Assembly (NCBI RefSeq): GCF_907164915.1
Contig: NC_061866.1
Location: 43,092,320 to 43,156,319, forward strand
DNA length: 64,000 nt
From: Impatiens glandulifera
Lineage: Eukaryota; Streptophyta; Magnoliopsida; Ericales; Balsaminaceae
Reading direction: 5' to 3'
Position numbers and translations under genes: made by a program. The notes beneath the pieces are model-generated. The model was not told where the DNA came from. It did no database searches and worked only from the letters and a program-made list of their open reading frames with translations. How positions within the stretch are numbered: position 1 is the stretch's first letter; each line of letters starts with the position of its first letter. Positions 3,751 to 53,700 of this stretch are shown piece by piece.

Positions 3751-4434
3751 CGTTAGTTTTTGCTTGGGGAAGGACAGAATGCTAAGAACTGCTCGAACAT
3801 AAACATACGCCTTTTTTTGTTTTGCCATACTATAATTGGCGTAGACCTCGTTATGGGCTTGTCTCATATGAGTTATTTGGGATTTTACTCCTAAATCAAA
3901 TCATTCTATTTATTAAACAAAATATTAAATTATTTATTATTTAAATATTTTATTATTTATTAAATATAAAAATATTTAAATAATATACATAAAAAAAATT
4001 CGGAATCATATCAAACTGACTTTTTTTTAACTCAGTTTTTATCTCCAAATAATTAAGATCAAACGAGCTATATGGGTAAGTTTTGTATTGACAATGCTTT
4101 ATATTTGAATTATTTTGTCTTAATTTATTTTAACTCACTAGTGATAATCTGGTTCAATTCTCACTAATTTTTTTTTTATTTTTTTTTTCTTACCTTAAAC
4201 AAATTAATAATTGAATTATATCTTAAAAATACTATTTTTTTTAATTATTTAAAGTTGTGGCTTGATATATATATTTATATATATATAGGGACTCTTCTAG
4301 CTTTCTTAAAAATAATAATCTTTTGTCTATCAAAATATAGTAGAAAATAAAAGGTTATAATAAGATTATAATCTTGCATTAGGACAGGTGTCATACGCCG
4401 CTAATGACATGGCTGTGAAATCCCTATCTTTTCA
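3751..4434. other. Intergenic AT-rich DNA upstream of the LEA gene
   Basis: No coding potential is visible. The stretch is AT-rich with poly(T) and poly(A) runs and grades into the LEA promoter. Confidence 0.6.
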
Positions 4435-6283: not shown

Positions 6284-7944
6284 CTATCGATAGTAAGCCT
6301 GTTGGTAGATAGCTGCCATATACCCACCACCACCGTATGGGGAATAGTTCAATGGAGGAGGAGGAGGTGGAGCAAATTGGTATGATTCCGGCGAGTAACA
6401 ACCATAACCAGTCACAGGCAGAGCCCCAGGAGGGCTGCTTCTACTTCCATACATCAAGGGAGAAACTGGGTAATGGATAGGAGATGGAGATTTGATGAAA
6501 GCTGGGGCAACAGGGAAAGACGAGACATATGCATTTGTAGACCGGCCAGCCTTAGCCGGCGGCATAGGACCTCCACTGCTTGCTCTTGTTCTCTTATTAG
6601 CAGGGACAGTGGCCGGCCTCTTTCTCTCACTCTTCACTGTCTTCTCCAGCTGGTCAATGCGTTTCTTCAGATTCTCTGGTGGGAATTCATCTTCTAGCTT
6701 GTATTCCTCAATGCACTTTACAACAGCCCTAAGCGCTGACTGCTCCTTCTTGGCCACAGCAGCTCGGCTGCCGGAGTTGTTGTTATGATCTTCCAAGATT
6801 GAATTTGCAGATTTCTTTGAATCTTTGAGAAATGCTTTAAGAAGAGGGACTGGTGGGTACTTGTCTATAAGACCAACTTCATATGTGAAATGAACTGCAT
6901 CAACTTGCTGTCCTTTACCGATCAGTTCTTCAATCATCTCTGTCCAAACCATTACAAACATAAAGATTAAAAGAAAGACTTGAAAACAGTTAAAACAAGA
7001 AGTGAGTGAAGATTACCCGGCATTTGATCAGTCAATCCAAGTGAAACAGCAAGCTTAGGCATTTGCTTCCTCCAAGCAGAACCCATAACAAGTTTCCTAT
7101 ACAAATCAAAATCTTCCTTCTTAACAATACCAAAAGTCACCAAATGCTGCAGAAACGTGTGTACGTCAGGAGTTTTAACGTTTTCAATCCCTCCACGTTC
7201 ATCCAAGCTTAACTTCCATGTCTCAGCTATATCTTTAGCTCTTTCCTTCATCATAGGAGTCACCAACATCCGTAAATTTCCAATAAACGGATCAACCATT
7301 ACTGGAATCAATGATTCCAGTATCAAAACACACGCCCAACCTAAATCATTCCATCTATCATTCTTCTCCGTTCTCTTATCCACTGGAAAAACCTTAGAAA
7401 TCGCCTCCAATACAAACCTAGCCGGATCAACACATAAAGACAAAGCCGACGGCATTTGAGCCCTCATTAACTCTAATTCTTTCTTCCTCACGATCACAAA
7501 CCCCCAAAAACCATTTGAATCCATTCTAGTACAGAAACAACGTAATTTCAAAAGCAAACCTTCTCCATTATCAACCTCTCCTCCAATAACAATACAATCA
7601 TCATCTTCTTCGAGTGTTGTACTATTCAGAGATGTAACTGCAGCTTTCATTTTCTCAAACGCAATTGATAATGAACCGTCGATAGTAGTTTCTCGTTTCT
7701 CGAGGAAATCGAGTGATTCCTTCGTCTGATTATCTAGGTTAGTGATCTTTCGCTTGATCGCGTCGGATTTTCTCTGAAGGTCTTGCTCGAGAGAGGAGAA
7801 ATGATCGGAGAGTTCTTTCCATAACAGAGTGCAACTCGTCATGAGAGACGCTTGTCGTTGAAAGTCGTCAAAACTGGTCATCGGAGAAGATGAAATCGGC
7901 GGCTTGTCGTCAAATACGCCGCCGGGATCTGGAATGGAGCTCAT
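6284..7944 (-). CDS. FRL4: FRIGIDA-like protein (FRL4 type)
   Basis: Two exons (7944-7017 and 6939-6284) separated by a 77-bp intron encode 527 aa. The junction codon G|AG gives the conserved MPEMIEELIGKGQQVDAV block, which confirms the splice. The N terminus (SSIPDPG) is followed by a predicted coiled coil at about residues 45-110, then the Frigida domain at about 120-400. The C-terminal ~130 residues are disordered and basic, then Pro/Tyr-rich (PPPPPPLNYSPYGGGGY), ending YYR. Length and ends match Arabidopsis FRL4a/FRL4b (about 530 aa). FRIGIDA-family proteins act as nuclear scaffolds; FRIGIDA itself promotes FLC transcription, while the role of FRL4 proteins in flowering is less clear. An ACACGTGT palindrome lies about 105 bp upstream of the ATG. 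Confidence 0.93.
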
Positions 7945-11260: not shown

Positions 11261-11269
11261 CTTAAATTA
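11261..11269. repeat. Left 9-bp target-site duplication of the MULE
   Basis: CTTAAATTA directly precedes the first base of the left TIR and is repeated exactly after the right TIR at 20067-20075. A 9-bp duplication is the hallmark of Mutator transposition. Confidence 0.95.
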
Positions 11270-11663
11270 GGGAAATTTGATGAAATGGCCCCCATAACAG
11301 GGGAAATTCCAAAAAGGGCCCACGCCTACTAATGTTGGCAAAAAGGGCCCTTTTGCCCTGCGAAATGTCAGAAATACCCCTTCGGCGCCATTTTTTACGC
11401 TCAAAGACGCGAATTACCAATCACGCGATTTAATCTAAATCGCGTGAGTTCATCACCACGATTTAGAAGAAACGCGTGATTGGTAATTCGCGTTTTTAAA
11501 TGTACGTGAATTACCAGCCACGCGTTTCATCTAAATCGCGGTGATGAACTCACGCGATTCAGATTAAATCGCGTGCATGGTAAATCGCGTCTTTAGTCGT
11601 ATATATAATTTTCCAGCCCTAATTTTAAACAAAACCTCCCCGATTCTCCCTCCCACTCCGACT
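11270..11663 (+). repeat. Left terminal inverted repeat with an array of CGCG palindromes
   Basis: About 394 bp matching the inverse of 19675-20066 with only a handful of differences by eye. The first ~130 bp are unique. The inner part consists of successive near-palindromes of 22-25 bp such as 11422-11446, of the type CACGCGATTTA...AAATCGCGTG. Past the TIR, similarity to the other end continues more weakly for roughly 100 bp. TATATATAA near 11601 may serve as a TATA box for the BRCT transcript. Confidence 0.95.
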
Positions 11664-11819
11664 GCGGCCGACTTTCCATTCCCACATCCATCAAGATCAT
11701 CGTTCATCAACATCAGCGTTCCTCAACATCATTGTTCCTCAACATCATCGTTCCTCAACATCATCGGGATCCTTCCAACATCATCGTTCTTCAACATCAT
11801 CAGGTCAGTTTAGGGCTTA

Positions 11820-12440
11820 AGGTTTAGACTTAGGTTTTGATGTATATTTACCGTTTATATTCATGTATATGGATGTATTTAGGGTTAAAGGTTTGTTTTT
11901 GATGTATATTATGTCGTTTCCTATGTATATCGAAGTTTTTGGGTTTATGGTTAGGTTTCGATGTATATTATACCGTTTATATTCATGGATATTGGTGTAT
12001 TTAGGGTTAAAGGTTTGTTTTTGATGTATATTATGTTGTTTCCTATGTATATCTAAGTATTTGGGTTTAGGGTTAGGTTTCGATGTATATTCTACCATTT
12101 ATATGGATGTATTTAGGTTTAGGGTTTGGTTTTGATGTATATTATGCCGTTTATAATGGATATTGATGTATTTAGGTTTAGGGTTAGGTTTCGATGTATA
12201 TTTTGCCTTTTATATTGATAGATATTATAGTATTTATGTTTAGGGTTAGGTTTCGATGTATATTCTGCCATTTATATTCATGGATATTGTTGTATTTAGG
12301 GTTAAAGGTTTGGTTTTGATGTATATTATGCCGTTTCATATATACTGATTGATTGTTGGTTTTCCTATATATACTGATTGATTGTTGATTTTCAATTACA
12401 TGAATATTGTATGGTTAGCTATTGATGTATATTCTGCTGT
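11820..12440 (+). repeat. ~60-bp minisatellite in the 5' leader of the BRCT gene
   Basis: The motif GATGTATATT recurs at 11839, 11901, 11960, 12023, 12082, 12134, 12193, 12255 and 12318, that is every 52-63 bp, with a tenth at 12424. Between copies lies GGGTTTAGGGTTAGGTTT-like sequence. The opposite arm near 19430-19510 carries about one copy in reverse, so the array expanded only on this side. Confidence 0.85.
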
Positions 12441-12510
12441 TTGTAATGATGGATATTGTAATATTTAGATCAGGAGCTGCCGTTGTGGTTTTCTCAGTTC
12501 GTTCAACAAA

Positions 12511-13500
12511 ATGGTATGTAATAAAATGGTTGTTAATAAAATGGTTTTCTTAGTTCGTTCAACTCCTTTTTTTTATAATATGCAGGCAACAAACACTGTT
12601 ATGACCTTATGTCCCAATCAATTATCACCTGAAAATAATGTATGTTCTATTCTCTCTACTATGTCCATATTAACTAGTTTTGTATGTAATAACCATTATA
12701 TTATTGTTTTACAGAGTTGTTGATAGTTGAATTTGCTCGCACTTTTGGTGCAAGGGTGTCTCCGAAGTGGAGAGAAGATGTAACCCATGTTATTGCTTAC
12801 ACTGATCCCAATGGTGCATGCGGCCGAACTCAAAAAGTATTGAAGGCAATTCTGAACGGGAAATGGGTCCTTACTATTGATTGTGAGTCTTTGTTAACAC
12901 GATTATTTTCATACATATGTCTGTTAAATTAGTTTAAAAATTGTTTTGTTTAGGGATAAAATCATCATTGAAAACCGAAAACTGTGTTGATGAGGAACCT
13001 TATGAGGTTAAACATGATAATCATGGAGCCCAAGGTGGTCCTAGAAAATGCAGACTTCTGTTGTTGAATAATGTGAGTTTGGTCTTATTCCTCCTATTTG
13101 TACTTTTTCTTATTTTGCATGATAACTGAAATTATCTTCTTTGTTGGTTTTTCAGCGTTCGAAACTGTTCGACGGTTACATTTTTATATTTGTAGGGAAT
13201 TTCAACACACTTTACAAACAGGATCTCATTGAGTTAATAGTTGCTGGAGGTGGTAGTATTAAAGAATCAGATAATCCAGATTATCCATTTGCTGAGCCAA
13301 GGGATGCGAAAACTATAATAGTATACTTCGAGATAGACAGCAGGTATCGATCAATTGAAAAGGATTTTGATGTTCTCCCCGACAATTGGCTTTTTGAGAC
13401 AGCGCCTGCTATGTCATGCATATTGGATGAACATGTTGTTCCTCATACAAAGTTGCTTCAATCTGTTGCTGCTTGTGATTTGCAGCATTTGCTTACTTAA
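12511..13500 (+). CDS. Double-BRCT protein inside the MULE (BARD1/BRCA1-like C terminus)
   Basis: Five coding exons (12511-12513, 12586-12639, 12717-12882, 12954-13072, 13156-13500) give an uninterrupted 228-aa protein. The first BRCT (about residues 5-85) has the THVIA block, the NGACGRTQKVLKAILNGKW block and the invariant Trp of the TIDW motif. A conserved linker follows (DEEPYEVK...HG). The second BRCT covers about 115-220. This arrangement matches the tandem BRCT C terminus of plant BARD1/BRCA1, which binds phosphopeptides in DNA repair, without the RING and other N-terminal parts. The single-codon first exon (ATG|GT) mirrors the MURA gene in the same element (ATG G|GT). The most likely origin is capture of the 3' exons of a host gene, with the open frame retained. 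Expression is unknown. Confidence 0.85.
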
Positions 13501-13698
13501 TTTGGAGTTGTTTAGACTTATTGTTCTTCTTCTATTTATGGGTTATTTATGATATTTATGGTTTATAACAATACTTAATTTGGATATTTATGATTTATGG
13601 TGGTTTATATTACTGAATATTCTTCTATTTATGGTTTATTACTTATGTTAACAATATCATAACTTATCCTCATAACTCACGCGTATTGTGTATAATCA

Positions 13699-13820
13699 AA
13701 CAACAAGGAACAAGGAACAATGTTGTTATTCGCCACATAACTCAAACAACAAGGAACAATGTTGTTATTCACGCATATTCGCCACATAACTCAAACAACA
13801 AGGAACAAGGAACAATGTTG
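13699..13820 (+). repeat. Short direct repeats (CAAACAACAAGGAACAA units)
   Basis: CAAACAACAAGGAACAA-type units followed by TGTTGTTATTC recur three times just before the internal TIR-like segment. No coding sense is visible. Confidence 0.7.
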
Positions 13821-13825
13821 CTATT

Positions 13826-14005
13826 CACGTGTTTCATCTAAAACGCGTGAATAAACTCACGCGTTTTAGATGAAACGCGTGAATGCATTTCACATTAAAA
13901 CGCGTGAGTTTATTCACGTGTTTTAGATGAAACACGTGAATAACAATTCACGTCTTTCATCGTATATATTATTTTTGTGCCCTAATTTATAACAAAACCA
14001 CGAAT
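13826..14005 (+). repeat. Internal TIR-like segment inside the MULE
   Basis: This stretch repeats the architecture of the inner left TIR. It has successive palindromes of the type CACGCGTTTTAGATGAAACGCGTG, then a CACGTC...CGTATATATTA segment, then GCCCTAATTTATAACAAAACC, which matches 11590-11633 in order. It is diverged from the outer TIR. It probably served as the original 5' end of the transposase gene before the BRCT segment was added outside it, which would make the element composite. Confidence 0.75.
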
Positions 14006-14172
14006 CCTTAATTTCCCCTTCTCTCTTCTCTCGCTTTCGCCACTCCGACTCGACCCTCCCCTGAAGAACTCGACCACGAGCAGCAGCAGCGGACGACTAC
14101 GACGACACCACGATACCCTGAAGAACTCGACCACGAGCAGCAGCAGCTTACCCACTACTCTTCGTTCTCAAA

Positions 14173-15722
14173 ATGGGTATGTTTATTTAATATTTAAAAT
14201 GCTATTCAAATAAAGTAAGGGTAATTTGTGGATGATTGAAATGATTTGATTAAATCTAAATAACCCTTCCTCAAACGAGGCCTTGATTTGGGTATTAGCT
14301 TTGTTTTAGTTCTTAGAAAGTCTTATTGAGTTATTGTCTTGGAATTTGTTTATCAGTACGTTGTTTAAGTTCCACAGTTCTTGAGTTATCTTGTTATTCT
14401 AGTATTAAGGTTTAGGGTTTGCATGCTGGCATAGTGTAGTTGATTTCACTCAATACTATCTTGTTATTCTAGTATTGAGGTAGAGTTTACTGGTATGTTT
14501 CGTGGAGATACAATGTTCCAAGAATTAACCACAAGTTTGCTTCAATGGACCTATTGGATAGGGAGCTCTTATCCCATTAGATTCATTGAAGCAAACTTAT
14601 GGTAAAAAGTTGCGGCATTGGATTTCCTGAAACTCTACAAGCAAACTCTCCTCGGTTATGGTAATGTTGTTGAACTTTTTTCAATTCTTGTGATGTTGTT
14701 GAACTGTTTTCAATTCTTGTGATGTTGTTGAACTGTTTTCAATTGCAGCTCAAGTACCTGTACTTCTTTACTTTGATGGAGAGTGGAAAACTACGGATGA
14801 TCTTACTCATTTTTCTGCAAAGTCAAACAGCGGTATGATTGTTCCCCAAAATTCTACTTATGCCCAATTAGTTGATCAAATTTATTCTGCTACCGATGTT
14901 GACAAATCTAGATATGATTTATATCTTCAAGCCAAGTATAATGCTCCTGGCATGATTGCCAAATTTTCTTATATAACTGATATAAAAAAAGATGTGGATG
15001 TGGAGTTCTTTTTACATGAAGCAGTTTCAGTCCACAACCGCACTCCATTGTGTGTATCCTTAGTAGAGAAGTCACTACCAACTCAAGAAAGTGTAGCGGT
15101 TCCAGAAATTGATGACCCCAACCTCTTCCCGATGCAGTGTGAGGTTTTCTTTGAAAATGACATTGAAGATGAACATTTGCGTCTGAATGTGGGGGATGAT
15201 GCTGATGATGATTGGGTTCCTATTACCCAACCTAGTAGTTCTGATTGGGTTCCTAGTACCAATCCAAATCCAAGCGGTTCTTGGGTTCCTAGTACACAAC
15301 AAAACAATGTTGTTGTTCGTACTCAACCAAGCTGCAGTGAATGGGTTGCTAGTAACATACCAAGTAGTGAAAATCCTTTACATGAGGCAGTAAGTACCGG
15401 AATCGGATTGGAAGTCGGTTCTTTGTTTGAGAATAAAAAAGAACTTCAGCTGAGGTTATATAAATATGCCATGACTAATCATTTTGAATTCAAAGTGGTG
15501 AAGTCAAAAAAAGAACTTTGGGTTGTGAAATGTTTGGATAAGAATTGCAAGTGGAGACTGCGTGCTGTCAGAGTAAATTCCTCGGAAATGTTTGAGATTC
15601 GTAAATTCGTAAAAGATCATACCTGTTCAATTGTCCACCTACACCCCCTTCCTACCCCTCTGCACCCCCTTCCTACCCCTCTGCACGAAGAAATCATCGT
15701 CCACCTACAAAGAAATCATTGA
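14173..15722 (+). CDS. Truncated MuDR-type (MURA) transposase, N-terminal part only
   Basis: A first exon contributing only ATG G (14173-14176) joins exon 2 at 14749, giving 325 aa. The start MAQVPVLLYFDGEW is typical of plant MURA-like proteins. An acidic linker with repeated DWVPS/GSWVPS motifs spans about 140-190. Residues about 205-295 form the MuDR N-terminal DNA-binding domain (PF03108 type; GSLFENKKELQLRLYKYAM, then CLDKNCKWRLRA, then a DHTCS block). Directly after CS, near 15630, the frame runs into sequence antisense to the last exon of the DUF1985 gene and stops. The DDE catalytic domain and SWIM zinc finger are missing, so it cannot transpose by itself but could still bind TIRs, perhaps as a competitor. 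Confidence 0.85.
14533..14598. other. Long imperfect hairpin in the transposase intron
   Basis: Perfect 15-bp arms (14533-14547 AAGTTTGCTTCAATG and its complement at 14584-14598) continue inward with only a few mismatches to a GAGCTC-centred turn near 14570. The ~66-nt fold-back resembles a small-RNA precursor. It matches no known miRNA that I can recall, and RNA expression is unknown. Confidence 0.6.
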
Positions 15723-17423
15723 ATTAGGCAACAAAAGCCCTTCAATTAGTCCAAATTCAAGAATTGCATACCTCATCTTCATTATCCTCCACCCTCTGCA
15801 CCCCCTTCCTACCCCTCTGCACCCCCTTCCTACCCCTCTGCACAACGAAATCATCGTCCACCTACAAAGAAATCATTGAATTAGGCAACAAAAGCCCTTC
15901 AATTAGTCCAAATTCAAGAATTGCATACCTCATCTTCATTATCCTCCACCTTCTCTTCCACCTTCTCTTCCACCTTCTCTTCCACCTTCTCTTCAACCTT
16001 CTCTTCCACCTCCTCTTCCACCTCCTCTTCCACCTCCTCTTCCACCTCCTCTTCCACCTCCTCTTCAACCTTCTCTTCAACATCATCTTCATTATCTTCC
16101 ACCTGCTTCTCCACCTGCTTCTCCACCTGCTCCTCCACCTGCTCCTCCACCTTCTCCTCCAAATTCCCAACATTCTCCATTTCCTACAAAAACCAGAAAA
16201 GCACTTCAATTAGTCCAAATGCAAGAAATAGGCAAAGTGCGCGAATTGCACCAAATGCAAGAAATGCATACCTCAGTATTGTTTTCCCCATCTTGAACTG
16301 TCTTCTCCATTTCCAACAAAAGCCCATCCTACAAAAACCAGAAAAGCCCTTCAATTAGTCCAAAAGCAAGAAATAGGCAAAGTGTGCGAATTGCACCAAA
16401 TGCAAGAAATGCATACCTCAGTATTGTTTTCCCCATCTTGAATTGTCTTCTCCATTTCCAACAAAAGCCCATCCTACAAAAACCAGAAAAGCACTTCAAT
16501 TAGTCCAAATGCAAGAAATAGGCAAAGTGCGCGAATTGCACCAAATGCAAGAAATGCATACCTCAGTATTGTTTTCCCCATCTTCAACTGTCTTCTCCAT
16601 CTCCATCAAAAGCCCATCCTACAAAAACCAGAAAAGCACTTCAATTAGTCCAAATGCAAGAAATAGGAAAAGTGCGCGAATTGCACCAAATGCAAGAAAT
16701 GCATACCTCGAAATTTTTTTGCCCATCTTCAACTGTCTTCTCCTCCAAATTCCCAACATTCTCCATCTCCAACAACGGCCCATCCTACAAAAACCAGAAA
16801 AACCCTTCAATTAGTCCAAATGCAAGAAATAGGAAAAGTGCGCGAATTGCACCAAATGCAAGAAATGCATACCTCGAAATTTTTTTCCCCATCTTCAACT
16901 GTCTGCTCTTCATTTTCATTGTCCTCCCCAACAGTGGTTTTCTCCAAGAGCCCAACAATGTCTTTCTCCTGTCCATCCTACAATAAACAGAAAAGCCCTT
17001 CAATTAGTCCAAATGCAAGAATTAGGAAAAGTGCGCGAATTGCACCAAATGCAAGAAATGCATACCTCAGTATTTTTAACACCATCTTCAACTGTCTTCT
17101 CTTCATTTTCATTGTCCTCCTCAACATTGTTTTTCTCCACAAGCCCAACATTGTCTTCCTCCTGTCCATCCTACAATAAACAGAAAAGCCTTCAATAAGT
17201 CGAAATGCAAGAAATGCACCAATTATACAAATGCAAGGAAATGCAAGAAATACATACCTCAACTTCATTATCCTCCACAAGCCCAACATTGTCTTTCTCC
17301 AAAATCAGCACATCATTGTCTTCCTCCTGTCCATCCTACAATAAACAGAAAAGCCTTCAATTAGTCGAAATGCAAGAAATGCACCAATTATCCAAATTCA
17401 AGGAAATGCAAGAAATACATACC
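15639..17423 (-). repeat. Tandem exon-intron repeat array of the DUF1985 gene
   Basis: Units of roughly 145-190 bp repeat, each an exon of 57, 78 or 105 bp plus a near-identical ~88-bp intron. Introns start GTATGCATTTCTTGCATTTG and end TTTTCTGTTTATTGTAG or TTTTCTGGTTTTTGTAG. Exons of the central block start GATGG and end GAG. At the low-coordinate end are a 12-bp minisatellite (15950-16155) and 21-bp units (CACCCCCTTCCTACCCCTCTG on the + strand) encoding the heptapeptides. Confidence 0.92.
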
Positions 17424-18970
17424 TCAACTTCATTCTCCTCCACAAGCACATCATTGTCTTTCTCCAAAATCACCACATCATTGTCCTCAATGTTCACCTC
17501 AAAATCCCCCTCGTCCTTTTCTTCTTCATTCTCCTTCTTTTTCTCCCCTTGTTGTAGTTGCTTTAACATCCGTTTAATGAGAATTATGTCATCTCTCATT
17601 TCGGTTTTGATGAGACTTATTTCATTTCTCATTTCAGTTTTGAAGAGAGTTATTTCGTTTCTCATTACAGTTTTGAATTCATTTAGCTCCTTCGAAAGTT
17701 GATCAAATCTACATCTATCGTGGGGAGTTGTTGCTGTTGGAGTTGGGGGAGAGGATTCTTCGTCTTCGTCTTCGTCTTCTTCTTCTTCTTCGTCTTTTCT
17801 ACTCGTGGCGCTCTCGACAGAATAAGAGCTGTTGGTGCTGGTGCTGGTGCTGGTGCTGGGGGCAGGGTTGCGGGTTCTTCTTCTTGTGGAAGGTTTGTCT
17901 TTGGCTGGAGTAATTTGTCTTTTCTTCCTCGTGACAGTTTTTTTATGAGGAACTCCATCGTCAATATCTCCAAATTTCCTCTTTCTGCAGTCAAGATCAA
18001 AAAAGACATCATAAACATTACCTCTCATATCTTCAAAGTCATCCCCAGCATATAAGATCTTCTCTTCTTCAGACAATTCCATTTTCTTAACAATCGTGCC
18101 TTGCAGGGCAGTGTGAAGATCAGAGGCAGTGCTCTTCCTCTTTGATTTGTACTGTATTATCCTTGGGCAGACAGGCTCTTCAGTTTGAAGCGTCGTTTTA
18201 ATTGCAAGATTGGGGACAAACGTTTGGATCACCTCATAAGTCCACACTTGTAAGGCTAGTGCGAACCCATATACGGTATAAGAAACATCGACATCTTTGT
18301 CTTTGTCTTTGTTCTTCTTCCCCGAGGCGGCATCCTTCTTCTGCAGATACAGCTTCCTGTAGCGATCAAGGTCTTTGGTCAAACCCTTCATGGTTGCTCT
18401 AAAGGCCACCTTTCCCCATGGAAAATTGAGGAAGGTGTCGATGTCATCGACCATGCTGAAGAGTTTCATATTTATTATCCTCCTCGGGTCAAGGGCAAAG
18501 AGATAATGGGAAACAATGTATACCAGCCCCAATTTCCATGCATCTTCCCTATCAGAGCAGGACAGGAATTTTGAATGAAGGTCTCCTATTCTAATAAGTG
18601 GAATACGTTTAAAATATTTAAGAACCAAAGTTGGAGATTCTTCAACCTGGTTGAAAATTGTTTGCTCCGTAGGGAATCTCCCAAAATTGAGACCTGTAAC
18701 CAATGCAAACTCCCTCATCCCGAAGCACAGCTCTTCTCCATTCACAAGGAACTTCATCTCCATAGAATTTGAGCTGGACTTCCTGAGGAGCATGTGGTGT
18801 ATAATCATTCCTGAGAAACGCAGTAACGGGTGCCCTTTGAATAAGAATCTGAATTGGGTTTCCTCTACCCTTTCAGTTAGATTCATCTTGGCAAACTTGG
18901 CAGCAATATTTCTCATATTGGTTTTCCAGGATACCCTCCCAGCAAACTCGGGTATTGTAGTGGACTCCAT
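15639..18970 (-). CDS. DUF1985 protein with a serially duplicated acidic exon array
   Basis: Eleven exons join without a stop into 831 aa: 18970-17423, 17335-17258, 17170-17066, 16977-16873, 16784-16707, 16618-16562, 16473-16417, 16328-16272, 16183-15929, 15861-15772, 15704-15639. Every intron is phase 0 and every exon a multiple of three. Exon 1 (516 aa) holds the DUF1985 domain (about residues 60-210) and a basic, NLS-like segment near 335-370. Exons 2-8 are paralogous acidic cassettes beginning Asp-Gly. Exon 9 is an 85-aa VEEK/VEEE/VEEQ tetrapeptide array. Exons 10-11 carry QRGRKGV heptapeptides. The ATG follows an acceptor directly (TTTTGTAG|ATG), and a donor near 19527 suggests a 5' leader intron. 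DUF1985 is often fused to Ulp1-like proteases in plant MULEs, but none is present here. The function is unknown. Confidence 0.85.
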
Positions 18971-19674
18971 CTACAAAACAAGGAAGAAGATGGGAATAAG
19001 CAAATCGAATTAACCATTGAGAAATGCTTGCAAATTTCTTAATAGATTAAGGTGCAGTAAATGTGCAGTAATACATTAAGGTGCAGTAATGGACAGTTCT
19101 AAAGACATTAAGCATATGATGTGTCATTTCTTAGATCAACAACTCATCCTGTCTCATTGAAATTCTATTAAACGTAAAGCAGTAAAGTAGAATAAGAACA
19201 GACGAAAATGAAGCAGTAAAGCAACAAAACAGATAAACCCTAAGCCTACACCGTCAAAGAAAACACAGAAATACCATTTCTTCACAAGAACATAACAAAC
19301 ACGGAAATGTCATTTCTTAAACGAGAAATGAATGAATAAGCGTGAAATGCATGCATGCAGAATAAGAACATTGATACAATACTCGTCATATACACACTAA
19401 AAGCATTTACACACATCAACGAAACGAGAACCAAACCCTAAACCCTAAATACATCAATATAAATCAATATAGACGGCATAATACACTTCTAAACCCTAAA
19501 CCCTAACACTGAAAGCCCTAAACTTACCGGAATATGTCGAATAGACGGCGGAAAAAGACGATGATGTCGAATAGAGTGGAAAGTCGATGACGTTGAACGA
19601 GGAACGATGTTGAGTGAACGATGATCTTGATCGATGTTGAAGGAAGTCGGCAGTTGAGAAGACGTGGTTTTGGA
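18971..19674 (-). other. Leader region of the DUF1985 gene
   Basis: No coding stretch is visible. On the minus strand a CCG|GTAAGT donor near 19527 and a TTTTGTAG acceptor at 18971 would define a leader intron of about 0.55 kb. AACCCTAAACCCTAA motifs near 19434-19507 are the inverse of the leader minisatellite on the other arm. Confidence 0.5.
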
Positions 19675-20066
19675 AGTCGGAGTGGGAGGGAGAATCGGGG
19701 TGGTTTTGTTTTAAATTAGGGCCGAAAAATTATATATACGACTAAAGACGCGATTTACCATGCACGCGATTTAATCTAAATCGCGTGAGTTCATCACCGC
19801 GATTTAGATGAAACGCGTGGCTGGTAATTCACGTACATTTAAAAACGCGAATTACCAATCACGCGTTTCTTCTAAATCGCGGTGATGAACTCACGCGATT
19901 TAGATTAAATCGTGTGATTGGTAATTCGCGTCTTTGAGCGTAAAAAATGGCGCCGAAGAGATATTTCTGACATTTCGCAGGGCAAAAGGGCCTTTTTGCC
20001 AACATTAGTAGGCGTGGGCCCTTTTTGGAATTTCCCCTGTTATGGGGCCATTTCATCAAATTTCCC
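19675..20066 (-). repeat. Right terminal inverted repeat of the MULE
   Basis: About 392 bp, the reverse complement of 11270-11663 with only scattered substitutions and 1-bp indels by eye. It ends AAATTTCCC immediately before the target-site duplication. The same CGCG palindrome array is present. Confidence 0.95.
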
Positions 20067-20075
20067 CTTAAATTA
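20067..20075. repeat. Right 9-bp target-site duplication of the MULE
   Basis: CTTAAATTA, identical to 11261-11269. It lies 168 bp upstream of the Psb27-H2 start codon. Confidence 0.95.
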
Positions 20076-20242: not shown

Positions 20243-21976
20243 ATGCTAACTTCTCTTTCAGCTACTACACGTCCCTGTATAATCTTCAATTCATCTGTCG
20301 AACCTTCAAGATCAATCGATCAAGGTAACTTTTCTTTCTGTTTTCACTCTTCACGGAAACTATCTAGCTTTTTATTCAGCAATTTTCATCAAATTAAACA
20401 GAAATGTAGATCCTGATTAAGTATATATGGAGGATTCTACCTGCTAAACCTTGTTATTAGGTTAGAAATTCTTAGATTCATTCATGCTGTTCATTCTGTT
20501 ACTGCTGCTTGTTCAATCTAAGTAGTCTTTATCCAGTTTTACGCTAAGCCCAGCTGCAGATTTTCTGATTCAGTTCATCAATGGAGTTTCTTGACATTAG
20601 TTGTCTATAATGCTGCAACAAGTTCTTCATTAGTCAATTAGGGTTTCCTTGAAATGTTGAAGTTTGTAAATGAAATATGGAGGAGATGAAACACCTCCAT
20701 ATCAGGCTAGTTAATTAACCTTCAAGAATCATGATTATAGACTAATTCACTCGACTACATAACAACACAACCATTTCCAATCTATCTTTAAGTTCGATTC
20801 CTATTAAGAACGCCTTAAGAATTCGGAAAAAACTGTGGTTATAGACAACTTTCTTCACAATTCCTATTACTTCTAGTCTTCTTCTCAATCATATCGATCA
20901 AATTGAAGTAGTCCATGTTATTCCCTGCTTTTATTGTTTAGATGATCTCTTGACTAGTTTATAGAACAGGTAATCTATCTTTAAGTTCAATTCCCATTAA
21001 AAACGCCTTAAGAATTGGGAAAAAACGGTGGTTATAGACAACTTTCTTCACAATTCCTATTACTTCTAGTCTTCTTCTCAATCATATCGATCAAATTGAA
21101 GTAGTCCATGTTATTCCCTGTTTTTATTGTTTAGATGATCTCTTGACTAGTTTATAGAACAAGTAATCTATCTTTAAGTCCGATTCTATTAAGAACGCCT
21201 TAAGAATTGGGAAAAAAACTGTGGTTATAGACAACCTTCTTCAGAATTCCTATTACTTTTAGTCTTCTTCTCCATCATATCGATCAAATTAAAGTAGTCC
21301 ATCTTATTCACTGCTTTTATTGTTTAGATGATCTATTGACTAGTTTATAGAACAGGTAATCTACCATCCAACATTGTTCGCGTCGCACTGTCGTCTGAAA
21401 AGAAAGATTCCACTTGTGGTCGTCGATATGCCATGTCATGCTGTGGTGTTTCCATGCTTACCCTTTGCACAGTCAACAGTTGGTTAATGGCTAAGCCTGC
21501 TTGGGCAGGAAATGGGGAAAAGGATCAAGATGATGATGGTATTGTTGGTGCAGTGAAATCGTTGTTTGATCCAAACGAAGTGACAAAGTCGGGTAAAGTA
21601 CTGCCAAAGGATTATTTGAAATCGGCGAGAGAGGTGGTTAGAACTCTGCAAGAGTCGTTTAAGGAAGATCCAAAGGATAATTCTAAATTCAGGAGGACTG
21701 CAGATTCCGCTAAAGAGTCTATTAGAGAGTATATAAACACTTGGAGGGGCAGACAAGAAGTGACCAAAGAGGTAATTAAGTATGATTTCATTGATCAAAT
21801 TTAACTCTTTTATATAATATAATCCCGTTTGAATGTAGGAATCTTATGTCATGATCGAGAAAGCCATAAGATCGCTAGCAAAGTTCTATTCGAAAGCTGG
21901 TCCATCTGCGCCACTTCCGGAAGATGTCAAGTCTGAAATACTCAAGGATTTGAACATGGCTGAAGAATTTTTATAG
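20243..21976 (+). CDS. LPA19: Psb27-H2 / LPA19, PSII D1 precursor processing factor
   Basis: Three exons (20243-20324, 21356-21771, 21839-21976) join into 211 aa with matching phases. The N terminus is Ser/Thr-rich without acidic residues until Glu20, like a chloroplast transit peptide. Residues 50-78 form a thylakoid-lumen signal with twin Arg (GRRYAMSCC), a hydrophobic stretch and an AWA cleavage motif. The mature part (about 79-211) is the Psb27 four-helix domain, with GAVKSLFDPNEVTKSGKVLP and GPSAPLPEDVKSEIL blocks close to Arabidopsis Psb27-H2 (At1g05385, LPA19). That lumenal protein assists C-terminal processing of the D1 precursor during PSII assembly. Short upstream ATGs, including one at about 20184, precede the chosen start. 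The original promoter has been pushed 8.8 kb away by the MULE. Confidence 0.92.
20779..21357 (+). repeat. Three 193-bp tandem repeats at the end of LPA19 intron 1
   Basis: Units start at 20779, 20972 and 21165, exactly 193 bp each, and differ by few substitutions. Each ends in TTTATAGAACA(G/A)GTAATCTA, the sequence of the true splice acceptor (AG at 21354-21355) plus the first bases of exon 2. The duplicated unit therefore includes the intron's 3' end. The first copy keeps a possible acceptor at 20970; the second is changed to AAG. Confidence 0.95.
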
Positions 21977-50775: not shown

Positions 50776-53700
50776 TCAAATCACCTTAGAAACCTCCTGT
50801 TGAAAACTAGGCAAGATCTCTTCAACATTATCATGTTCAGAAAAAAGACACAAACATTTGAGAATTGTATCAGTAATTTCTTCGTTAAGACGAAACCCAT
50901 CAGCTGCCATCCGTCTAAGCAAACCAATTATTTCTTCCTTTTCACCCATCGCAAGAAAACCGTTTAGCAAAGAATCGTATACAGCAGCAGTAGGACCATA
51001 ACCGCAAGCCACCATCCTCTCGAAGGTGGCTTTTCCCGCCTGCCAATGTCCTAATTTCATAAATCCATTTACAAGTGTTGAAAAGGTCACAACATTAGGT
51101 TCCACGCCCATTTGAAGCATTTCCTCGAATAATTGTTCCGCCGATTGTAGATCATTCGCTCTTAGAGTTGCATGAATTATGATATTGAAAGAGAAAACAT
51201 CCGGTTTACTGTCTGTTTTGCTCATCGCTAAAAAGAAACTTTTTGCCTCCTCCAAACTACCTTCTTTGCAGAGAATTTCTAGTAACTTGTTGTAATGACG
51301 AGTTGCAAGCAGAATTCCACGATTCGTCATGTGAATCAAAAGACCTTTCGCAATGTTCATCATTCTCAATCGGCAGAATCCATTTATCAACGCTGAATAA
51401 GTGTATGAATCCAGAACTAATCCCATTTCAAGCCCATTCTTCAATAACTTCATTCCTTCACCAACATCTCCTTTCTTCAAATGAGCATGTATTAGTATAT
51501 TAAGAGGAAATATTTCTCTCATGTTCATTTCACGATGAATCTCCATCGCTTTCTTTAGACGACCTTCTTTACATAGCCCGTAAATTAAAGCTGTTAACAA
51601 TTGATGATTTGGCTCTACACGATTCTCGTCTTTCAACATCAAAGATACTAACCTCACCGCCTCATCAACCTTCCCATTCTTGCAAAGCCCCCAAGCTAAT
51701 GAATTGTAAGAAACAATGTCGATTTTATTATTATTCCCTTTAGTCATTCTTTCAAAGACTCTTAAAGCTTCGGTAACCATACCAGATTTACAAAATCCAT
51801 TGATTAGTGAAGTATATGTTATTTTGTCTGACTCTTCACCATTCTCCTCCATTAAGTCTACTAACCGCATGGCATCCATAGGCCTTCCATCTTTACACAG
51901 CCCATCGATTAAAACGCTATAGATTACCAGATTCTGTTTTATTCCTCGGTGTGACATCACATTGAATAACTCGCTAGCTTCCTCCCATCGCCTCATTTTG
52001 CAAAGATACTGTAATAAACTTGAATAAATGAATGCGTCCGGTTCAACTCCTTTTTCCAACATCATATCGTAAAGTTTCTTTCCCTCGTCGAAATTCTCAG
52101 CTTTGCAAAATCCATTTACAAGTGCACTGTAAGTAATAACATTCGGATTGAGGCTCTTAAGCTTCATGTCATCAAACAAATCTATTGCTTCTCCCATTTG
52201 ACCCTTTTCACAAAGCCCGTTCATAAGAGTGGTGTAGGTAACAACATCCGGATTGAAGCCCTTCAGCTTCATGTCATCAAACAAATCCATTGCTTCTCCC
52301 ATTCGACCCTCTTTACAAAGCCCGTTCATAAGAGTGTTATAAGTAGAAACATTCGGATTCATGCCCTTCAACTTCATGTCATCAAACAAATACATTGCTT
52401 CTCCCATTCGACCCTCTTTACAAAGTCCGTTCATAAGAGTGTTGTAAGTAAGAACATTCGGATTGAAGCCCTTCAGTTTCATGTCATCAAATAAATCCAT
52501 TGCTTCTCCCATTCGACCCTCTTTACAAAGCCCGTTCATAAGAATGTTGTAAGTAAAAACATCCGGATTGAAGCCCTTCAGCTTCATGTCGTCAAACAAA
52601 TCCATTGCTTCTCCCATTTGACCCTCTTTACAAAGCCCATTCATAAGAGTGTTGAAAGTAATCACATTGGGATTGAAGCCCTTCAGCTTCATGTCATCTA
52701 ACAAATCCATTGCTTCTCCCATTCGACCCTCTTTACAAAGCCCGTTCATAAGAGTTGTGAAAGTAATCACATTGGGATTGAAGCCCTTCAGCTTCATGTC
52801 ATCAAACAAATCCATTGCTTCTCCCATTCGACCCTCTTTACAAAGTCCGTTCATAAGAGTTGTAAAAGTAATCACATTGGGATTGAAGCCCTTCAGCTTC
52901 ATGTCATCAAACAAATCCATTGCTTCTCCTATTCGACCCTCTTTACAAAGTCCGTTCATAAGAGTTGTGAAACTAATCACATTGGGATTGAAGCCCTTCA
53001 GCTTCATGTCATCAAACAAATCAATTGCTTCTACTATTTTACCATTTTCACAAAGCCCGTTCATAAGAGTGTTGTAAGTAATAACATCCGGATTGAGGCT
53101 CTTAAGCTTCATGTCATCAAACAAATCTATTGCTTCTCCCATTTGACCCTTTTCACAAAGCCCGTTCATAAGAGTGCTGTAGGTAACAACATCCGGATTG
53201 AAGCCCTTCAGCTTCATGTCATCAAACAAATCCATTGCTTCTCCCATTCGACCCTCTTTACAAAGCCCGTTCATAAGAGTGTTATAAGTAGAAACATTCG
53301 GATTCATGCCCTGCAACTTCATGTCATCAAACAAATACATTGCTTCTCCCATTCGACCCTCTTTACAAAGTCCGTTCATAAGAGTGTTGTAAGTAAGAAC
53401 ATTCGGATTGAGGCCCTTCAACCTCATGTCATCAAACAAATCCATTGCTTCTCTCATTCGATCATTTATACAAAGCCCGTTCATAAGAGTTGTGAAAGTA
53501 ATAACATCCGGATTGATGCCCTTCAGCTTCATGTCGTCAAACAAATCAATTGCTTCTCCCATTCGACCCTCTTTACAAAGCCTGTTCATAAGAGTGCTGA
53601 AAGTAATCACATCAGGCAATACAGACCCTCTGCACCATTCATTGAAAACCTTTACAGCTCTTGAAGTATCACCATTTCGACAAAGTCCATTTAAAACAAC

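Follow-up and report, generated by a model that had tools for sequence, protein, structure and literature searches.

A DUF1985 gene with a tandem exon-intron array

We analyzed a 64,000-nucleotide stretch of the Impatiens glandulifera genome (contig NC_061866.1, positions 43,092,320 to 43,156,319; hereafter, the window, to which all coordinates refer). A Mutator-like element with long terminal inverted repeats (TIRs) occupies positions 11270-20066 and contains a DUF1985 gene that continues into a tandem array of exons and introns. The element was delimited by its ends, its inverted arms and a perfect 9-bp target duplication, CTTAAATTA, at 11261-11269 and 20067-20075. The left TIR (11270-11663) and the right TIR (19675-20066), the latter upstream of the DUF1985 gene, aligned as two arm pairs with 97% and 86% complementarity; each TIR is approximately 394 bp long and comprises a 323-nt arm, 97% complementary, and an outer arm. 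A MuDR-type transposase (PF03108) together with the 9-bp target duplication places the element among the Mutator-like elements. The transposase gene converges on the array gene, and its 5' part (DBD_Tnp_Mut, 14733-15635, plus strand) was recognized by Pfam PF03108 and by alignment with a transposase relative, P0030. Residues 1-284 of P0030 aligned up to window base 15635; no match to residues 285-447, at whose end the MULE domain starts, was found in the window.

On the minus strand, 11 exons between positions 18970 and 15639 join into a frame of 831 codons, and the coordinates, exon lengths and phase-0 introns reported in the earlier note, which was made from the sequence alone, were reproduced exactly. 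Exon 1 (17423-18970, 1548 bp) encodes the DUF1985 domain (aa 67-195), a basic/Ser-rich stretch and short repeats. It is followed by exons 2 (17258-17335, 78 bp), 3 (17066-17170, 105 bp), 4 (16873-16977, 105 bp) and 5 (16707-16784, 78 bp), and by exons 6 (16562-16618), 7 (16417-16473) and 8 (16272-16328) of 57 bp each. Exon 9 (15929-16183, 255 bp) consists of 12-bp units coding for a VEEK/VEEE/VEEQ block, exon 10 (15772-15861, 90 bp) encodes VDDDF and QRGRKGV heptads, and exon 11 (15639-15704, 66 bp including the stop) is the truncated start of the long last exon of other copies. All array exon lengths are multiples of three, and all 10 introns are in phase 0.

The introns had been described as nearly identical and about 88 bp long. 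This held for eight of them, namely introns 1-4 (17422-17336, 17257-17171, 17065-16978 and 16872-16785) and 5-8 (16706-16619, 16561-16474, 16416-16329 and 16271-16184), of which the first two are 87 bp and the next six 88 bp long. Introns 9 and 10 (15928-15862 and 15771-15705) are identical to each other and measure 67 bp each; the introns as a whole form three related classes of 87, 88 and 67 bp. Every array intron begins with GTATG and ends with TTGTAG; counted on both strands of the window, there are 12 occurrences of GAGGTATG and 17 of TTGTAGG, and 10 of each are array splice sites. TTTCTTGCATTTG was found in introns 3 to 8. Nine of the 10 introns contain ACTAATTG, which we take to resemble a branch-point word, and intron 2 has ACTTATTG in its place. 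The T content was 46% in array introns versus 19% in array exons. A putative 5' UTR intron (18971-19527, minus strand; GTAAGT...TTTTGTAG) directly upstream of the ATG was predicted from the sequence and from the alignment of the left and right sides of the element. An Rfam scan gave nothing at gathering thresholds, and the predicted structure of exon 1 had a mean pLDDT of 44.6.

Since an alignment shows the introns to be related to one another, the whole array probably descends from one exon-intron unit. Because the units are duplicates, the common phase 0 of the 10 introns counts as one inherited fact and not as 10 independent ones. Likewise, the open frame inside the array is weak evidence by itself, since several of the short exons are stop-free in other frames too. 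The strong evidence for the array gene comes from the other genomic copies rather than from the window frame.

Copies of the gene in the genome

Copies were sought in the 653.9-Mb I. glandulifera assembly that contains the window. With the array as query, the best 40 of 319 candidates, including the window's own locus, were scored; with the DUF1985 stretch, the best 40 of 967 were scored, and counts are lower bounds. All of these best 40 DUF1985 candidates matched query bases 1-981; identity was 100% for the window's own locus and 99% for the remaining 39, suggesting that the transposon family was amplified recently. Twenty other copies of 9.5 kb each were fetched, which together with the window gave 21 copies.

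The array was present in all 20 other copies. An Ulp1/C48 match was located downstream of the array in 18 of them, partial in some (e.g., L012); L017 matched only the segment preceding C48, and L026 showed no match downstream of the array. The convergent transposase reached the start of the MULE (catalytic) domain in 19 of the 20 copies, L017 having no transposase, and it was antisense to the array gene in all 19 copies with a match as well as in the window. In the seven C48-carrying copies whose sequence was inspected here (L009, L010, L015, L018, L022, L023 and L027), an open stretch begins after the last array intron and leads from VDDDF through RKRT.SKA toward C48.

We examined the frames by excising the array introns and changing nothing else; L010, which has no located start, was left out, leaving 19 other copies. 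L009, L023 and L027 were open for 1176, 1191 and 1156 codons, respectively, from DUF1985 to the C48 end, and no two of them share an exon string. Pfam analysis of the 1191-aa product of L023 identified DUF1985 (E 4.9e-22) and Peptidase_C48 (E 1.1e-31). Open frames in other copies, a point on which the earlier note had staked its reading, were thus partly found: three copies reach the C48 end and two more (L012 and L016) pass the array and stop later, and the remaining 14 of 19 stop earlier.

These copies also showed that the 831-codon frame, which had been taken for the gene, is incomplete. In its relatives the array continues in the last exon to Ulp1/C48, which the window copy has lost. The junction TAGGTG, containing the stop, lies at 15636-15641 (minus strand), between the end of transposase similarity at 15635 and the start of the array repeat at 15642. 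The equivalent transposase site in the nine other copies inspected is CACAATTGAA, preceded by transposase sequence, whereas in the window copy array sequence stands immediately before ACAATTGAACAGG. The window has three instances of the 10-mer GTAGGTGGAC, two of them at the acceptor sites of exons 10 and 11 and the third at the stop. These comparisons indicate that an internal deletion fused the array to the broken transposase gene and created the stop of the 831-codon frame, and that the stop TAG is most likely a leftover 3' splice site. Because the junction cuts the last exon, the window stop is no natural gene end.

L026, after position 4062 in gene sense, is a second copy without a C48 match, and its last exon ends abruptly past a VDDHF repeat. 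As this copy also breaks off there, internal deletions recur near the array.

A protein search with the array tail gave 17 matches. Sixteen of these are annotated with a subtilase domain (PF00082) and were taken to be chance matches to Glu/Val-rich repeats, P0013 being the one inspected. The one relevant match was the NCBI model P0023 (I. glandulifera, F-box CPR1-like), whose residues 368-412 matched exon 4 at 73% by tblastn. It joins an F-box protein to a pair of array cassettes and the beginning of the C48 part, and may be fused through annotation or genuinely chimeric.

Variation of the array

Array introns were called by a rule requiring GT and AG, and intron lengths of 68 and 105 were left out as likely miscalls. 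The 21 copies contained 217 array introns and 196 internal exons, 192 of the latter being multiples of three, and 20 distinct exon-length strings. The cassette comparison proposed in the earlier note thus yielded arrays that differ from copy to copy, in agreement with its claim that whole units can be gained or lost in frame; the three frames reaching the C48 end agree with it as well. Among 15 copies (L010, L013, L014, L015, L017 and L019 were left out), the exon string was shared by one of 105 pairs, L026 and L027, and the median identity of the first 600 bp of exon 1 was 99.2%. Four copies carried an additional 75-bp exon and 83-bp intron at the array start, and L020 and L022 had a single 153-bp exon in place of two elsewhere. 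Of the distinct lengths, 28 of 32 were divisible by three among exons versus two of eight among intron variants (Fisher p 0.0012).

We also compared related loci. P0009, another protein of this genome, aligns with the window protein at 58% identity and is in turn matched at 57-66% by the related loci L033 and L034. These two loci contain arrays of other units, such as a 102-bp DGIEKNNDGLVLEADVLDEKSNDGIVEKKIDDIE exon, with introns called at 55-84 bp, several E|DG borders as in the window family and mostly a GTAT...TTTGTAG intron frame; the calls for these two loci use a loose match, and some exons are not multiples of three or contain stops, making the borders uncertain. Array calling accepted no intron in L030 or L032. 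The simplest reading is that related families expanded the same kind of unit separately.

Domains and relation to VANC and Kaonashi genes

The DUF1985 domain proposed for exon 1 was confirmed by Pfam (PF09331, E 4e-23). Exon 1 also matched the PDB entries of VANC21 (9lnj/9lnk), at E 4.5e-14 with a profile and E 3.8e-7 with exon 1 alone, and on this similarity the domain is homologous to the solved VANC21 anti-silencing protein.

The known systems resemble the present gene in different respects. As with VANC of Arabidopsis VANDAL elements (VANC21 and VANC6), the gene has a directly homologous DUF1985 domain, is located beside the transposase on a Mutator-like element, carries variable tandem peptide motif regions with exon/intron variation tied to the repeats, and has short motif repeats in its own introns. 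Unlike VANC, it has no DUF287 that was found, relatives of the window copy carry C48 after the array, and the TIRs are approximately 394 bp long instead of degenerate. The C48/Ulp1 domain of these relatives and the orientation opposite to the transposase are shared with KIU (Kaonashi ULP-like) genes; the differences are the long TIRs versus a non-TIR element and the loss of C48 from the window copy itself. We did not assign the gene to VANDAL or Kaonashi because DUF287 and a TIR-less state were both looked for and not found. The best guess, by analogy, is a VANC/KIU-like protein with a DNA-binding N-terminus, an acidic linker of variable length and a protease-like C-terminus.

With duplicated symmetrical exons in one frame, the array qualifies as a tandem exon array. 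Titin PEVK exons are short, similar and symmetrical. Titin PEVK (PMC7274174) and Dscam (PMC1397879) are described as having exons of one kind arrayed in one gene; unlike these, the present array lies inside a transposon and differs between recent copies of one genome.

The earlier note knew of no described transposon gene of this sort, a statement that the literature does not support. Exon/intron organisation varying with tandem repeats has been reported for VANC genes, along with their tandem peptide motifs, by Hosaka et al. (PMC5735166). That report also describes the binding of VANC21 to short motifs in noncoding parts of its element, VANC21 introns included, and speculates that VANC tandem repeats help determine specificity. 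The binding to noncoding tandem repeats is restated in PMC10398659, where VANDAL TIRs are described as degenerate. In PMC2528002, KI-MULEs have a Kaonashi gene in reverse orientation to the transposase and are described as non-TIR elements. A 2026 review presents KIUs as VANC genes that captured an Ulp1 domain (PMC13317346). The general phenomenon is thus already stated for VANC genes, and this family is a variant of it; in the open-licence literature searched, no report was found of an Impatiens transposon in which whole exon-intron units act as cassettes that vary between copies.

Taken together, we consider it likely that the window gene is a 3'-truncated DUF1985-Ulp1/C48 gene of the VANC/Kaonashi kind, on a recently amplified Mutator-like element with long TIRs, and that its middle consists of tandem exon-intron units gained and lost in frame. 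The near-identical phase-0 introns would supply the homology for unequal exchange or slippage, and exons in multiples of three would allow units to come and go with the frame intact. The product would have an acidic linker, probably disordered and variable in length, between the VANC21-homologous N-terminal domain and a C-terminal Ulp1-type protease domain, and its function may be anti-silencing.

Several observations weigh against this interpretation. DUF287 was missing from the Pfam hits of both products, with matches considered up to E 0.1 for the 831-aa product and up to E 0.01 for the 1191-aa product, and the element has long TIRs, unlike VANDAL or Kaonashi elements. In 16 of the 19 other copies whose start was located, the frame does not extend to the C48 end. 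Exon lengths often change through 9-, 12- or 21-bp repeats, which makes steps of three partly built in. Splicing of the array gene in vivo is presumed from frames, splice signals and gene models, and P0023 retains the starts of two cassettes and the end of one, but places the end of its first cassette elsewhere than predicted here. Finally, the interval of the nonsynonymous-to-synonymous ratio (pN/pS) for the array exons, given below, includes 1.

VANC-type proteins change targets quickly, and this family bears on the question of how they do so. Many young gene copies with strongly differing phase-neutral arrays, together with related families expanding other units, make the question testable by comparing natural array variants. 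The family is also a clear example of fast protein change in steps of whole exon-intron units.

Selection on the parts of the gene

Average pairwise pN/pS was 0.37 (0.22-0.69) for DUF1985 and 1.40 (0.70-3.44) for exon 1 beyond aa 330, both in the 15 copies used for the exon-string comparison. For array exons 2-4 pooled, with L014, L020 and L022 and exons with stops or deviating lengths left out, it was 0.44 (0.22-1.07), and for the stretch leading into C48 in 11 copies it was 1.42 (0.86-2.68). Selective constraint is clear for DUF1985 only.

These values bear on the possibility that the Ulp1-type protease does the work of the protein, with the array as a neutral disordered spacer that drifts and has no part in anti-silencing. 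The C48 domain is intact in the 1191-aa product, the ratio of exon 1 beyond aa 330 would suit a drifting spacer, and according to the 2026 review the Kaonashi protein still lacks thorough characterisation and its Ulp1 domain has no known function (PMC13317346). However, the VANC21-homologous N-terminal domain is the sole part with pN/pS clearly below 1, the stretch into C48 shows no such reduction, and KIU-carrying VANDALs also induce hypomethylation according to the same review (PMC13317346). We regard this possibility as rather improbable, though still worth weighing.

Between copies, array introns diverged by 0.9-3.5%, and silent sites by 5.5% in exons 2-4 and 2.5% in DUF1985. Inside the window array, introns differed at 10 of 263 positions versus 23 of 228 in exons (p 0.006, from three chosen pairs of which one is significant alone). 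Constraint on the introns, which this within-window comparison had suggested, was discarded because across copies the introns diverge approximately as DUF1985 silent sites do.

A motif repeated in the array introns

The motif TTTCTYGCAWWTG occurs 10 times in the window, versus 0.01 expected in shuffled sequences. In the 21 copies (199,520 bases), all 186 sense matches lay in array introns, with none elsewhere and none antisense; individual copies had 3 to 12. Among the related loci, L029, L033, L034, L030 and L032 had 17, 13, 11, 2 and 0 matches, respectively, often at 18-bp steps. A search for 8-mers common to the array introns and to noncoding sequence elsewhere in the window element yielded no convincing candidates.

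It is tempting to regard these intron repeats as targets of the element's own VANC-like protein, so that each duplication would add a single cassette to the protein and one or two targets to the DNA. If so, one duplication would raise linker length and target number together, and protein and targets could change jointly in every new transposon copy. The confinement of the motif to array introns, its excess over shuffled sequence and its recurrence in four of the related loci, often in regular steps, would fit such a role, as would the lower divergence of array introns compared with silent sites of exons 2-4. VANC21 is described as binding tandem motif repeats, some of them inside VANC21 introns (PMC5735166). 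On the other hand, the TTTCTYGCAWWTG matches are copies of one another and not independent, and the motif is T-rich and may simply be intron-typical. VANC21 motifs occur outside its gene too, whereas TTTCTYGCAWWTG never occurs outside array introns here. The resemblance of intron divergence to that of DUF1985 silent sites leaves no clear additional constraint, the otherwise intact-looking L026 and L027 have merely three matches each, and matches in the related loci were counted over whole loci, irrespective of intron position. We accordingly hold this idea to be doubtful.

That the array is a non-coding tandem repeat whose open frame is due to composition is hardly credible: several short exons are indeed stop-free in other frames and most copies are broken in frame, but frames of 1156-1191 codons link DUF1985 to C48 in three copies with different arrays, length changes of exons and introns differ in kind, and P0023 uses two cassettes, both starting at DG and one ending at NFE as predicted, although the end of the first differs.

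Two other repeats were observed in the element. The left leader contains 122/59-bp tandem repeats (11821-12432) in which GATGTATAT occurs 10 times, with no occurrence elsewhere in the window (1.08 expected), making it another candidate VANC-type target repeat. A 29-bp tandem repeat at 14664-14744, upstream of the coding part of the transposase, has AATTCTTG in common with some array introns.

Other features of the element and the window

Between the left TIR and the transposase lies a captured gene piece with BRCT similarity (12717-13501, plus strand; PF00533, E 1.4e-14 for a 208-aa spliced product). Three copies (L011, L017 and L026) cover it in full and some others in part, so it belongs to the transposon family. 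Each TIR contains its own 98-nt inverted repeat (11396-11601 and 19737-19942; 88-89% complementary, 10-nt gap), a possible source of small RNA, and a palindrome related to these inverted repeats was found at 13818-13946. Just outside the element (20779-21363), a 193-bp unit occurs three times in tandem. Two adjoining Frigida-like open reading frames (6284-7944, minus strand) appear to be a single gene interrupted by a stop or an intron. A PPR gene at 52128-53612 (minus strand, 1116 aa) includes 14 copies of a 105-bp repeat with approximately 90% matches, which suggests that its PPR units expanded recently.

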